Shown here: positions 24,376 through 28,721 of the stretch, one piece after another
How the letters are laid out: each line of letters starts with the position of its first letter
Position numbering within the stretch: the stretch's first letter is position 1
DNA from: a virus
Reading direction: 5' to 3' (one strand)
Length of the DNA stretch: 28,721 nucleotides
Virus record (IMG/VR): IMGVR_UViG_3300030419_007078
Span: 1 to 28,721 of that record
Position numbers and translations under genes: made by a program
The notes under the pieces: generated by a model
Told to the model about the DNA's origin: nothing
Database searches by the model: none
The model's input: only the letters and a program-made list of their open reading frames with translations

Positions 24376-25677
24376 ATGGCGAGACAATCAAGAAAAGTCA
24401 CTTCAGACGCCGCAGGCAACCAAGGCGGAACTCGCGAATTGTTTTATCAGAGACAGGTGTTTAAAAACTCAGTGTTAGTTATGAATGAGACTTATCCGCA
24501 TTTTGTCGACTTTAGGTTTGGTGAAAAATTTATGTTTGGCCGCGTTGATCAATTTTCATCTCCAATTGTAATTAAAAGAACGGCTGGAAAAAAAGAAATA
24601 CCTCCAACAGCTTTAGCTCAATCTGACTCTTATATGGTAGCTGTAGATTTTGTTGTTGACGCATTTAACGATTTGTTGAAAAGTTTTGCTAAGGCACGAC
24701 TGATTGAACAAATAGCGCCCGAAGCTGCATGGTTAGGAAATCTTAAAGTCTATAAAGCATATGAAGATCCTTATCAAAAATATAAAGCTTACAACGAGAT
24801 TTTTAATATTGAAATTAGAAAGCAATTTATTAATCAAAATATACAAGTTGTTGAATTTAAAGAATTTATTGAACATTTTAAAGGAATCCTTTTAACAAGC
24901 GGCGAAGGCGTGCGTAGATTCCCATACACATTGCCAGGATATATGAAAAGTCGTCTGTGTCCAATAACATGCAGTGGCTTGGCTATTGAAATTGCAAACT
25001 TGGATGCATCCAACGATTTGCAAAAAACCCAATTTATGGCGAACTCTAATTTTAAATTTTTTTTAAACGCATGTAATGATAATGGATTTATGGTCGATCA
25101 AGACTGCCCGTGGCGAATAGTGGCAGATATTGCTACGCCTGTGATGCTTGAGCGCGCAGCCGAGCCAAATGTAGTGTCGTCAATTAGAAATCGATATAAT
25201 TCGGCTGGCTTAGAATACTTTTCAAAATTTACACAAAGATTGTTGAATCTTTATAACTATATAAAGCAGCCCGTATATAGAACAGTGGAATTCTGCCAAC
25301 AAGGCACAATAATAAATAAATTAATTTATCCACGTGAATATACGATTGATGATTTAAACAGCGTCATTGGAATCGAAGGTATAATCAGGTTATACTGTGA
25401 GATTAGGTTTGCGGAGGAAGAATCAGTTTTTAGCGATAACGAACAAAAAAACTTAATCCACCAAGTAATTCAGGCCGTCCGCGCTGATGATGATGCTTAC
25501 TCTGCAATTTTTATTTTTGAAAGAATTTTAAATAAATCGTTTGACTATTCTCGTTCTGTAAGTTATATTGAGAATCGTATGAAACTTATTAAACAAGCCG
25601 GCTGGCGCTCAGAGTGGTTCAAGGGCGACAAGGCACAGGATTTACCAGAGCCTGGATCAGGCGGGGGTGTTTATTGA
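24376..25677 (+). CDS. unrecognised 433-residue phage protein
   Basis: The ATG is preceded by AGGAGG. The protein is mixed helix and strand, with no membrane segment or known catalytic motif. Distinct blocks are 'ETYPHFVDFRFGEKFMFGRVDQFSSPIVIK' (36-65), 'RRFPYTLPGYMKSRLCPITCSGLAIEIANLD' (about 179-210) and 'FLNACNDNGFMVDQDCPWRIVADIATPVML' (about 229-258). Similar blocks occur, as far as I remember, in structural or unassigned proteins of marine myophages. Position is ambiguous: it follows the hub by 33 bases but has its own sigma70-like promoter and its stop overlaps the polymerase start by 4 bases. It could be a virion protein or a replication-associated protein. I see no DEDD exonuclease motifs, so it is not the missing proofreading subunit. 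Confidence 0.75.
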   Translation: MARQSRKVTSDAAGNQGGTRELFYQRQVFKNSVLVMNETYPHFVDFRFGEKFMFGRVDQFSSPIVIKRTAGKKEIPPTALAQSDSYMVAVDFVVDAFNDLLKSFAKARLIEQIAPEAAWLGNLKVYKAYEDPYQKYKAYNEIFNIEIRKQFINQNIQVVEFKEFIEHFKGILLTSGEGVRRFPYTLPGYMKSRLCPITCSGLAIEIANLDASNDLQKTQFMANSNFKFFLNACNDNGFMVDQDCPWRIVADIATPVMLERAAEPNVVSSIRNRYNSAGLEYFSKFTQRLLNLYNYIKQPVYRTVEFCQQGTIINKLIYPREYTIDDLNSVIGIEGIIRLYCEIRFAEEESVFSDNEQKNLIHQVIQAVRADDDAYSAIFIFERILNKSFDYSRSVSYIENRMKLIKQAGWRSEWFKGDKAQDLPEPGSGGGVY

Positions 25678-26849
25678 TATTTCAAGCGCTTGACGACAAG
25701 TCAGAATGCATCGGGATTTACGCAAATGGCAAATTGTCGTTTGAAAATTTTCCAAATAATTTAACAAAAACATGGCGATACAGTGCATCTATCACGGATC
25801 CAGCGGTGGAGTATGCTTGGATACGCGCTAGCGGGCGCAATATTACTGATTGCTGCCCAGAAGATTTATGTAACGAGCTTCAGGCCGTCCAAAAAAAAAT
25901 GAAGGCCTACATTAAATCTTTCACGATTGCTAAGGTTAATATGATGGATCACTGTATTTTTGATTTAATCCCTCACGATTTTCTTATTAGGTTTTGCGAG
26001 ATTAAAAACAAAATTACCGAGCACGTTTTTGAAACTTATGAGGAGCCTGAAAATTATGCACATCTAAATAGCGTGTATAAGTTGCTGCACAAGATTAGAT
26101 ATCAAAAACTAAACTTAAACAGCGAAGATTGCAAGCACTTGTTTTATTCATCGATGAATCGACAAAAGATTCAAGAATTAATAAAAAACTTCAGAACCAT
26201 CGACTATAACATGTTTGGCACGATTACGGGTAGACTAACCACTCACCCCGAATCTTTTCCAATTCTAAATCTTAAGAAAGACTTACGCCGTATTATAAAA
26301 CCTCGCAATGATTTGTTGATGAGCCTTGATTATAATGGCGCTGAGATTCGCACTTTGTTGGAACTATGTGAACAAAACCAACCTGATCACGATATTCACG
26401 AATGGAATATTCAAAATGTAATTAATGATTTAACAATGACAAGAGAGGAAGGAAAGTTGTACTTTTTCGCATGGCTATACAATCCTGAGTCAAGGGATAT
26501 TGAGTCGGATTATTATGATCGCGAAAAAGTACTTGACAAGCATTACAAAGACGGATATATTCATACACCATATGGGCGCAAAATCAAAGTGGAACAAAGA
26601 AAAGCATTAAACTACTTGATTCAAAGTACAACCGCAGATCGCGTGTTGGAAAAAGCTGTTTTAATTGATAAGATGCTTGAAGGTAAAAAATCATTTATCT
26701 CCCACATTGTGCATGATGAGATTGTGATTGACTATGCAGATGAAGATCGCAACATGGTTCTTGGCATTCGTGATGTTTTTGAAGACGGTTATATGGCAAA
26801 TGTGCGTGCCGGAAAAGATTATTATAATTTAAATGAGATAAAATTATGA
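25674..26849 (+). CDS. family A DNA polymerase without exonuclease domain
   Basis: 391 residues from a TTG that overlaps the preceding stop (TTGA); GGGGGT lies upstream. The frame is open to 25614, but an ATG there has no ribosome site. Pol I motifs are clear: TGRLTT (from 185), motif A 'LMSLDYNGAEIRTL' with catalytic D219, 'DHDIHEWN', motif B 'R-EEGK-LYFFAWLYN' on the O helix, 'QSTTADRV', and motif C 'HDEIVI' with D348. Motif B differs from bacterial Pol I (K--NFG--YG), but 'FFAWLYNP' occurs in other phage members. Residues 1-~110 contain no 3'-5' exonuclease motifs and the protein is far shorter than usual phage PolA. Rhodothermus phage RM378 is known to encode polymerase and exonuclease separately, so a split replicase is likely. 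Confidence 0.9.
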   Translation: MIFQALDDKSECIGIYANGKLSFENFPNNLTKTWRYSASITDPAVEYAWIRASGRNITDCCPEDLCNELQAVQKKMKAYIKSFTIAKVNMMDHCIFDLIPHDFLIRFCEIKNKITEHVFETYEEPENYAHLNSVYKLLHKIRYQKLNLNSEDCKHLFYSSMNRQKIQELIKNFRTIDYNMFGTITGRLTTHPESFPILNLKKDLRRIIKPRNDLLMSLDYNGAEIRTLLELCEQNQPDHDIHEWNIQNVINDLTMTREEGKLYFFAWLYNPESRDIESDYYDREKVLDKHYKDGYIHTPYGRKIKVEQRKALNYLIQSTTADRVLEKAVLIDKMLEGKKSFISHIVHDEIVIDYADEDRNMVLGIRDVFEDGYMANVRAGKDYYNLNEIKL

Positions 26850-27685
26850 TTTCAATTATTGGTTTAGGAACTGCAGCCTCTAAAATAGCCGAAAAATTTA
26901 AACAAACAAAAAATTATAACGTCTACACAATGAATAAAGGAGTGTCGCGTAATTCAAAGTATAAGTATAGGCTTAAGAACTATGAGACACCTGAAGAATA
27001 TGAAAACAATATTCCAAATCTTAAAAAATTCTTTGCTGAAGTAGATGAGACTATTCAGTTTTTCATCGTAGGCTCCTCATTTAGTTCAAACTATTCGTTA
27101 GGCGTCTTGCAGCAGCTTAAACACAAAAAAGTTGATGTTTACTATATTCAACCTGACTCCGAATTGATGACCGGTGTTCCGAAATTGTTGGACAAGATTG
27201 TATTTAGTGTTCTGCAGGAGTATGCCAGATCAGGCTTGTTAAACTCTTTTACTGCAATTTCAAATGTAATGGTAGAAAAATCAATTGGAGATATACCGAT
27301 TAAAAGTTATTATGACAAGATTAATGATTCAATTTTTTCAACAATTCATTATATAAATTATTTTAATCACGCTGAACCTGAGATAGGAATGACTTCGGCT
27401 CCCCTAAGCATTAACCGAATCAGGACACTTGGACTGCTGAACACCACAAATCTTCAAGAAAAATGGCTTTATAAGCTTGACATGGAGCGAGATATATGTT
27501 ACTATTTATGTATCAATAAGGAAAGACTAGAAAAAGAAGGAGGATTGCATAAAAAAATTGTTGATATGCTTAAGGAAAAACCTCGTAATGCATTTCGTAG
27601 AATATCTTATGCAATTTATGAAACAGAACATCAAGATTTTGGGCTTTGCGTTGCCCACACTAACGCAATACAAGAATACACTTGA
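26846..27685 (+). CDS. divergent tubulin/FtsZ-fold protein with degenerate GTP-binding loop
   Basis: 279 residues, ATG overlapping the polymerase stop (ATGA). The segment order matches FtsZ. Residues 2-12 'ISIIGLGTAAS' match the first strand and T1 loop, followed by 'YNVYTMN' like 'VEFIAVNTD'. Residues 71-100 are a strand, the loop GSSFSSNYS, a helix, then 'VDVYYIQP', in the place of the tubulin signature GGGTGTG, helix and 'TVGVVTKP'. Residues 134-171 'FTAISN...PIKSYYDKINDSIFSTIHYIN' match 'TLIVIPN...EAFKVADDVL', including helix H7. Residues ~215-275 give the C-terminal domain, 'YYLCINKE' to 'YAIYETEHQDFGLCVAHTN'. The Gly-rich T4 loop and the T7 N-x-D-x-x-D are not visible, so GTP hydrolysis is doubtful. 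Phage tubulins such as PhuZ position DNA in the cell; the role here is unknown. Confidence 0.55.
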   Translation: MISIIGLGTAASKIAEKFKQTKNYNVYTMNKGVSRNSKYKYRLKNYETPEEYENNIPNLKKFFAEVDETIQFFIVGSSFSSNYSLGVLQQLKHKKVDVYYIQPDSELMTGVPKLLDKIVFSVLQEYARSGLLNSFTAISNVMVEKSIGDIPIKSYYDKINDSIFSTIHYINYFNHAEPEIGMTSAPLSINRIRTLGLLNTTNLQEKWLYKLDMERDICYYLCINKERLEKEGGLHKKIVDMLKEKPRNAFRRISYAIYETEHQDFGLCVAHTNAIQEYT

Positions 27686-27710
27686 CAAGCTACGTTGAGT
27701 GTGACACAAT
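27682..27710 (+). promoter_or_regulatory. sigma70-type promoter before the gp32 homologue
   Basis: Perfect TTGACA (27682-27687), a 17-base spacer and CACAAT (27705-27710). The -35 box overlaps the stop codon of the tubulin-like gene. It would give extra transcription of the ssDNA-binding protein, which is needed in stoichiometric amounts. Confidence 0.65.
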
Positions 27711-27712
27711 AG

Positions 27713-27733
27713 AAATCAAGGAAAGCTTGATTT
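27713..27733 (+). promoter_or_regulatory. perfect hairpin in the gp32 leader
   Basis: AAATCAAG and CTTGATTT form an 8-bp stem around the loop GAAAG, ending 29 bases before the ATG. The rest of the leader is unstructured and A/C-rich. T4 gene 32 has its autoregulatory pseudoknot about 40-67 bases upstream of its start, so this may be a functional analogue. Confidence 0.45.
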
Positions 27734-27762
27734 ACTTTACCCAACAAATAGGAGAAAATAAA

Positions 27763-28533
27763 ATGGGAATTGATATGGAACTGATGCGACGAAAGCTCGC
27801 ATCCCTTCGCGGCGAAGGAAATAAAGACAGCTCTTCACCCTGGTTTAAGCCAGATGAAGGCGACACCGACATTCGGATCGTGCCGACAAATGATGGCGAT
27901 CCGCTAAAGGAAATGTTCTTCCACTACAACGTGGGTGAGCACAAGGGGGGTATTCTGTGCCCGAAGCGTAACTTCGGCGAACATTGCCCCGTATGTGAAT
28001 TTGCTTCTTCGCTATGGCGCGAAGGAGTAGACAACAACGATGAGGAGAGCAAGAAGCTTGCAAAGTCACTCTTTGTGCGCACTCGCTATTTCTCTCCCGT
28101 TGTTATCCGTGGTCGAGAAGACGAGGGCATCAAGGTCTACGGCTACGGAAAGCAGGCTTATGAGCTACTTTTGGGATACATTTTGGATCCTGAATACGGA
28201 GACATCACTGATGTGAAGGAGGGCACGGACATTACCCTTACTTATACCAAGCCCAATAAGCCTGGAGCGTATCCCCAGACAAACCTAAAGATGCGTCGAA
28301 ATACGTCCACCCTCCTGGAAGACAGCGAAGCGATCCCCGCCCTCCTCGATCGCATGCCTGACTTTGACAATCTCTTTGAGCGTCTTAGTCCATCCCAGGT
28401 CGACGCAATCTTAGATGAACAACTTTCCGGAAGTTCTTCCGCAGAAAGTCGCTCGTCTGAGACAGCCAAGTACGGTGCCACCAATGGTAAGAGTGATGTA
28501 GACCGTGCGTTTGATGAGTTAATGACAGGCTAA
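27763..28533 (+). CDS. 32: single-stranded DNA-binding protein, T4 gp32-like
   Basis: 256 residues from the ATG with AGGAGAA upstream; the longer frame from 27682 runs through the leader and has no ribosome site. The basic N-terminus (MELMRRKLASLRGEG) is the cooperativity or 'LAST' region. 'DTDIRIVPTNDGDP' matches the first core strand. The zinc ligands are H54, C66, C75 and C78, with spacing close to T4's H64, C77, C87 and C90, and 'HCPVCEFASSLW' is typical. The Ser-rich linker (~225-240) leads to a short acidic end, 'DVDRAFDELMTG', which in gp32 contacts other replication proteins. It is shorter than T4 gp32 (301 residues). Codons are GC-richer than in the neighbours, like the capsid gene. 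Confidence 0.92.
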   Translation: MGIDMELMRRKLASLRGEGNKDSSSPWFKPDEGDTDIRIVPTNDGDPLKEMFFHYNVGEHKGGILCPKRNFGEHCPVCEFASSLWREGVDNNDEESKKLAKSLFVRTRYFSPVVIRGREDEGIKVYGYGKQAYELLLGYILDPEYGDITDVKEGTDITLTYTKPNKPGAYPQTNLKMRRNTSTLLEDSEAIPALLDRMPDFDNLFERLSPSQVDAILDEQLSGSSSAESRSSETAKYGATNGKSDVDRAFDELMTG

Positions 28534-28560
28534 TAGTAACTAGGTGAGTCTAGTACCGAT

Positions 28561-28597
28561 GGCAGAGCGGGGTAAAAATACTCTGCCAAATTTTTCC
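28561..28597 (+). terminator. possible terminator after the gp32 homologue
   Basis: GGCAGAG (28561-28567) and CTCTGCC (28581-28587) form a perfect 7-bp stem around a 13-base loop, followed by AAATTTTT. The large loop and delayed T-run make it weaker than the others. Confidence 0.45.
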
Positions 28598-28609
28598 AAA
28601 GGAGGGATT

Positions 28610-28708
28610 ATGAAGTACGCTGTACTAATCGCCGCATGCGCTCTAATGAGTGGTTGCGGAGACGCTGATGAAGACACTGGCGAAGACACTGCTGTCGTCG
28701 CTGAGTAA
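28610..28708 (+). CDS. 32-residue predicted lipoprotein
   Basis: ATG with a strong AAAGGAGGG site 4-12 bases upstream. The peptide has a Lys at position 2, a hydrophobic core (YAVLIAACALM) and a lipobox-like M-S-G-C with C16 as the probable lipidated residue; I-A-A-C10 is a poorer alternative because the core would be too short. The mature part would be only 17 residues, acidic (CGDADEDTGEDTAVVAE), with EDTGEDTA as a small repeat. No family is recognised. Tiny phage lipoproteins are known to block receptors or entry of related phages (T5 Llp). Such a role, or one in the host envelope, is possible but unproven. It may be cotranscribed with the gp32 homologue if the hairpin in between is leaky. 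Confidence 0.65.
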   Translation: MKYAVLIAACALMSGCGDADEDTGEDTAVVAE

Positions 28709-28721
28709 GCAAAAGCCGCTG

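Follow-up and report, generated by a model that had tools for sequence, protein, structure and literature searches.

A predicted tubulin-fold protein family devoid of the canonical GTP-binding and hydrolysis motifs, encoded beside a family-A DNA polymerase in marine Far-T4-like phages

Proteins of the tubulin superfamily are best known for forming filaments driven by GTP. The motifs of the superfamily have been stated as GGGTG[T/S]G, for GTP binding, and NxDxx[D/E], the T7 motif of hydrolysis (PMC12583498). In this study, we analyzed a 28,721-nt stretch of viral DNA (IMG/VR record IMGVR_UViG_3300030419_007078; hereafter the window), in which an earlier reading of the sequence alone had proposed a tubulin/FtsZ-like protein with no canonical GTP signature, encoded inside a replication operon; structure models and a family-wide loss of the motifs support this core proposal. 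The gene (26846..27685, + strand; ATG start and 279 aa, from the open reading frame and its translation) is real and conserved. Its product resembles the FtsZ of bacteria and archaea in predicted fold, in the order of the elements through H7, in the T1 glycines, the Asn after S6, the aromatic residue and the Asn/Asp of H7, and in the C-terminal domain. However, unlike FtsZ, the 279-aa window protein has neither GGGTG[ST]G nor NxDxx[D/E], helix H8 or C-terminal tail, and it belongs to a phage replication locus. PhuZ, from the phiKZ-like nucleus-forming phages, is likewise a phage-borne member of the superfamily in a large contractile-tailed phage, but no sequence similarity to it was detectable, the window protein does not have the glycine-rich loop, near GGGSGS, that is retained in the PhuZ rows checked, and the structural and replication genes of the window are Far-T4-like. 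The fold is also that of TubZ/RepX, of plasmid and phage partition, and structures 4ei7 and 2xka were among the top structure matches. In contrast to TubZ/TubRC, the neighbors are a family-A DNA polymerase (PolA) and a single-strand DNA-binding protein (SSB), with no TubR-like partner or centromere repeats seen beside the gene, and the window protein is shorter than TubZ, has no tail and has lost the motifs. The archaeal CetZ gave the best single PDB match of the window model (3zid; E = 6.4e-13, TM 0.65), although CetZ is a GTPase-type tubulin and the hydrolysis motif is lost in the phage family.

The nearest experimental precedent for the double motif loss is the FtsZ-like protein Nmar_1262 of Nitrosopumilus maritimus, which has neither the GTP-binding motif nor the T7 loop and did not polymerize in yeast (PMC3684127). 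Its loop AGKAGSA resembles the [SA]GK[VI][SA]GA of the divergent phage clade, a lead in which the two are likened by the loop alone, and unlike the phage family Nmar_1262 is a cellular archaeal protein. FtsZ and tubulin go unmentioned in the description of the Far-T4 phages, and the available part of a comparative survey of jumbo phages mentions two FtsZ/tubulin representatives and describes no PolA-coupled one. Within open-access papers, no account of a PolA-coupled, motif-less tubulin family was found. The best explanation is that marine Far-T4-like phages carry a previously unrecognized, motif-less family belonging to the tubulin/FtsZ superfamily.

Predicted fold and motifs

Searches of Pfam, PHROGs and PDB sequences with the window protein and its close relatives returned no tubulin match, and in the Pfam search the window protein did not reach the curated cut-off of PF00091. 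Comparison of the window family by hhalign gave a probability of 1.5% with FtsZ (not significant) and of about 1% or less with PhuZ, while FtsZ against PhuZ gave 83% in the same setting. Identity to cellular FtsZ was approximately 8–14% over both proteins that were modeled, and approximately 8–10% for the window protein. Given that the sequence-profile comparisons were not significant, a comparison of folds was needed. The AlphaFold model of the window protein, obtained with an alignment of 54 relatives, had a pLDDT of 90.8 and a pTM of 0.90. All of its best 50 PDB matches in Foldseek were CetZ, TubZ or FtsZ, with query-normalized TM up to 0.72 and rmsd of 4.4–6.2 over more than 300 alignment columns, and among viral structures its best matches were models annotated as FtsZ or tubulin of phages. 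We separately modeled a member of the other clade that is about one third identical (pLDDT 93.3), and its best 50 PDB matches were solely FtsZ, TubZ and tubulin, with E values from 1e-10. The two-domain tubulin fold with the central helix H7 (residues 152–175) was found in the models. Models from two divergent clades thus match the tubulin superfamily alone among their best 50, and the claim of a tubulin fold survived the comparison. The profile searches suggested along with that claim gave no PF00091 match for the window protein itself and weak matches, in register, for the divergent relatives. In this divergent clade, PF00091 (Tubulin) was weakly matched in six of 40 members (best E = 0.0044, sub-threshold) and TIGR00065 (ftsZ), also sub-threshold, in eight of 40, NCBIfam having been run solely on the divergent-clade alignment. 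The best four matches of its PDB profile search were FtsZ, in register over S6-T6-H7. Judging from the two models, it is almost certain that the window protein and its family have the tubulin/FtsZ fold. A match to uteroglobin was discarded as a chance hit, sub-threshold and with a matched stretch that varied between searches; matches of the window protein or its close relatives to cysteine synthase were likewise sub-threshold.

The motifs were examined in an alignment of 201 unique full-length homologues. It must be noted that the residue register comes from profile alignments (hhalign against E. coli FtsZ, and the PDB profiles of the divergent clade) and not from coordinate superposition. As the first reading had proposed, the segments follow the order of FtsZ, namely T1, the signature loop, N140 after S6, H7 and a C-terminal strand-helix-strand. 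The T1-equivalent loop (residues 5–11, IGLGTAA; 26858..26878, + strand) was aligned by hhalign onto VIGVGGGG of FtsZ; its family form is IG[LI]Gx[AG][AG], with G6 in 99% and G8 in 100% of the homologues. In the T4-equivalent signature loop (residues 76–82, GSSFSSN; 27071..27091, + strand), hhalign placed G76–N82 on G105–G111 of E. coli FtsZ, which bears out both the replacement of GGGTGTG and its proposed location at residues 76–84. No GGGTG[ST]G loop was seen in either of the two clades into which this loop divides the homologues: GSSxSSNY (n = 128), to which the window belongs, and GxGKxxGA (n = 73), more fully GxGK[VI][SA]GA. Within the loop, G76 is invariant, position 78 is Ser/Gly, position 79 is aromatic/Met or Lys depending on the clade, and position 82 is Asn/Gly.

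The absence of NxDxxD after H7 was also borne out, N.D..[DE] being present in just two of the 201 homologues over a wide region following this helix. At the positions equivalent to D209 and D212 of FtsZ, counted ungapped from the end of H7, residue 183 is V/L/T and residue 186 is Pro in 84% of the sequences. Column statistics and the model show a T7-equivalent stretch (residues 176–191; 27371..27418, + strand) with neither NxDxx[D/E] nor H8, and in the models of both clades there is no helix H8 between H7 and the strand at 192–198. The window protein ends a few residues past the last strand (265–272), the C-terminal tail peptide being absent. E177 and E179 are Glu in 80–85% of the window's clade, in which either may represent a displaced catalytic acid. 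The alignment indicates that the loss of both motifs is family-wide and not a one-off decay, and classical GTP hydrolysis has very probably been lost in the family.

The base pocket presents a different picture. Profile alignments identify N140 (27263..27265, + strand) as the equivalent of the guanine-pocket Asn of FtsZ (N165 in E. coli, N166 in S. aureus), and place an aromatic residue at 156 and N160, with a spacing of four, at the start of H7 (27311..27325, + strand). We take these three positions to correspond to N166/F183/D187 in S. aureus FtsZ and N206/Y224/N228 in tubulin, the residues that contact the guanine. Among the 201 homologues, N140 is kept in 98.5–99%, Tyr/Phe156 in 99% and N160 in 99%, and the chance that three fixed columns fall within the 24 most conserved non-aliphatic ones of 279 is p ~ 6e-4, given a correct mapping. 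In addition, a family motif Q-x-Y-x-R-S-G (residues 124–130; 27215..27235, + strand) lies at the C-terminal end of the modeled helix preceding S6, with Q124 and R128 in 100% and S129 and G130 in 98% of the sequences. Since the guanine-contact trio is near-invariant, "GTPase-dead" describes the family better than "nucleotide-free", and from these residues we infer that nucleotide binding has probably been kept and hydrolysis lost.

Distribution and gene neighborhood

The rest of the window is the virion module of a contractile-tailed phage of the T4 superfamily, with tail sheath, tube, baseplate and major head protein. The last of these matches phrog_138 (E = 4e-70), and its closest counterparts are those of the uncultured phage LR756508, Flavobacterium phage immuto and Microcystis phage Mel-JY01, that of Rhodothermus phage RM378 being a more distant match; it is on account of this head-protein kinship that the window is named Far-T4-like. 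Homologues of the tubulin-like protein occur in hundreds of marine Far-T4-like contigs of IMG/VR. Protein and profile scans of viral contigs retrieved at least 81, at least 304 and at least 580 relatives, and a scan anchored on the SSB reached further members of the family. The gene is single-copy in each of eight large relatives (136–194 kb). Four clade representatives used as queries retrieved no homologue from 50,697 phage records, isolates included, nor did one scan of bacterial and archaeal genome contigs reveal any. Apart from this family, viral contigs L289–L302 carry a short canonical FtsZ of approximately 310 aa, with GGGTGTG and NVDFAD, that is unrelated to the PolA module.

Immediately upstream of the tubulin-like gene is a family-A DNA polymerase (DNA_pol_A) of approximately 390 aa (25674..26849, + strand; PF00476, E = 2.4e-11), whose open reading frame in the window was drawn from 25614. 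The start of 26846..27685 overlaps the polymerase stop, confirming the ATGA coupling that had been noticed in the sequence. The exact overlap recurs in 132 of the 159 loci of the window's clade. In the GxGK clade, the gene is coupled to the polymerase or lies within 20 nt of it in 43 of 75 loci, and one to four small ORFs stand between the two in 31 of 75. The polymerase was upstream of the tubulin-like gene in all 237 loci with a detected polymerase, a count in which most loci were recruited through the tubulin-like gene itself and the SSB-recruited set is the independent part. No locus had a polymerase and room downstream of it but no tubulin-like gene. On the other side, the gp32-type SSB (27763..28533, + strand; PF08804, E = 6.5e-15; phrog_1192, E = 3.7e-23), with its start at 27763 set from a conserved Shine-Dalgarno/ATG, is indeed the adjacent, next gene, as had been proposed, but it begins about 78 nt on, behind a promoter-like site of its own, and is not translationally coupled. 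The SSB was found downstream at a median of 78 nt and as far as 3.7 kb, so that the polymerase is the tighter partner. Upstream of the polymerase, in closer loci, the conserved neighbor is a 433-aa gene (24376..25677, + strand in the window; cluster 3) present in 105 of 124 loci and with no match in the Pfam search. Genes for RecA, 5'-3' exonuclease, DnaB helicase, ribonucleotide reductase and dCMP deaminase lie downstream in relatives, while the T4-type sliding clamp was not detected in the eight large relatives with a single Pfam profile, PF02916, which divergent clamps may escape. Pairwise distances of the tubulin-like protein, the polymerase and the SSB correlate at 0.91–0.93, with no excess specific to the polymerase, as would fit a long shared ancestry.

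The phages immuto, Mel-JY01 and LR756508 share the order of the PolA...SSB module but lack the tubulin-like gene. Because other Far-T4 phages thus carry the module without it, the position in the operon is no proof of physical association. A canonical relative was sought in the same slot of these three phages and none was found, and a partition-system reading based on iterons was not supported, 26600–28721 containing no repeat array. The PolA–SSB interval of other Far-T4 phages is filled by a conserved protein of 130–150 aa with the motif HRKK.[ST]NT.YTIN.LN (L124:1346-1801, L125:5918-6307 and the L392 ORF at 8353), which is absent from the tubulin-bearing clade.

Possible functions

With moderate confidence in the combined statement, we favor a protein that binds a guanine nucleotide, does not hydrolyze it and serves the PolA replisome as an accessory or scaffold. 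According to this explanation, the family would have kept the two-domain fold, H7 and the guanine-base residues, would have lost the T7 hydrolysis loop together with H8, and would have rewritten the phosphate-binding loop. Guanine nucleotide would be bound as a structural or regulatory ligand with no tubulin-type hydrolysis, and the protein, produced through translational coupling, would be a stoichiometric accessory or scaffold of a minimal family-A DNA polymerase. Gene order makes a role with the polymerase the most likely one. Of the roles put forward in the sequence-only reading, that of replisome scaffold or accessory has the best genetic fit and that of binder of another nucleotide is possible, while no specific support was found for that of decoy of host FtsZ. 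More tentatively, a protein of the tubulin superfamily may have turned into a dedicated subunit of a viral polymerase (a tether, processivity factor or nucleotide-gated regulator), abandoning hydrolysis and filament dynamics, and would as such be conserved throughout a major group of marine phages.

Among the alternatives, the protein could be a cytoskeletal tubulin of the PhuZ/TubZ type whose filaments position or segregate replicating DNA, non-hydrolyzing assembly making these filaments stable. The superfamily fold, the retention of H7 and the base pocket, and the location of the gene in the replication region all agree with it, and PhuZ provides a phage precedent for DNA positioning (PMC4244570). 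However, the T7 loop, which in FtsZ filaments touches the nucleotide of the neighboring subunit (PMC12583498), is missing together with H8, the protein finishes a few residues beyond its last strand, neither a direct-repeat array near the gene nor a TubR-like neighbor was found, and the thaumarchaeal FtsZ without both motifs fails to polymerize in yeast (PMC3684127), all of which makes this alternative doubtful. It is somewhat less probable that the protein is a Rossmann-type sensor or enzyme for dGTP, ppGpp, NAD or a nucleotide-pool signal, tuning DNA synthesis or nucleotide supply, in which case the tubulin fold would reflect ancestry only. The phosphate loop has been rewritten in two ways, each well conserved, there are weak profile matches to NAD/CoA-binding Rossmann domains, and the downstream ribonucleotide reductase and dCMP deaminase genes of relatives would suit such a role. 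Nevertheless, the guanine-contact trio is nearly invariant, the Rossmann matches fall below the cut-off and are to be expected from a GxGxxG-like T1 loop, and no enzyme active site was recognized. Finally, a decoy or capper of host FtsZ, which with a nucleotide-bearing top face and no T7 face would cap protofilaments and halt division during infection, accords with the kept top face and the lost bottom catalytic loop, and other phages do target FtsZ through Kil (PMC3961180) and T5 Hdi (PMC10714956), but it is improbable, as approximately 8–14% identity to cellular FtsZ makes mixed filaments unlikely and the constant linkage is to the polymerase and not to host-takeover genes.

The preferred reading, of a replisome accessory, suggests that a tubulin has probably been put to a new use, genome copying; if true, the tubulin fold can act as a non-motor component of a DNA-copying machine. 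With its losses in the phosphate loop and in T7, the family offers a natural series of variants for dissecting binding, hydrolysis and assembly in tubulins, and annotation by motif or by Pfam misses it completely.

Other features of the locus

The stop codon of the tubulin-like gene is overlapped by a sigma-70-like promoter (TTGACA-17-CACAAT) at 27682–27710, a site also present in many relatives. At 27713–27733, the gp32 leader contains a stem of 8 bp whose apex is G-GAA[CA]G-C; it lies ahead of gp32 in 154 of the 258 SSB loci. Among the 32 distinct sequences of this stem, 99.2% of the cells pair, compensatory changes occur in seven of the eight pairs, and the covariation score is 0.80 vs. 0.30 in shuffles; it had no match in Rfam. 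The start that the promoter-like site (27682–27710) would predict coincides with the stem, and the stem is a candidate for an RNA or a single-strand DNA function. A small lipoprotein-like ORF (MKYAVLIAACALMSGCGDADEDTGEDTAVVAE) is located at 28610–28708, after a terminator-like hairpin at 28567–28586. In a 190-kb relative (G002), a phage-encoded tmRNA was found at L382:18710-19047, with the predicted tag ANNNNHYDEVRLAA, and this phage also encodes tRNA-Leu and tRNA-Gly elsewhere in its genome. Across 26846–28533 of the window, the G+C content steps up at gp32, which has 50%, against 33% for the tubulin-like gene and 36% for the polymerase.
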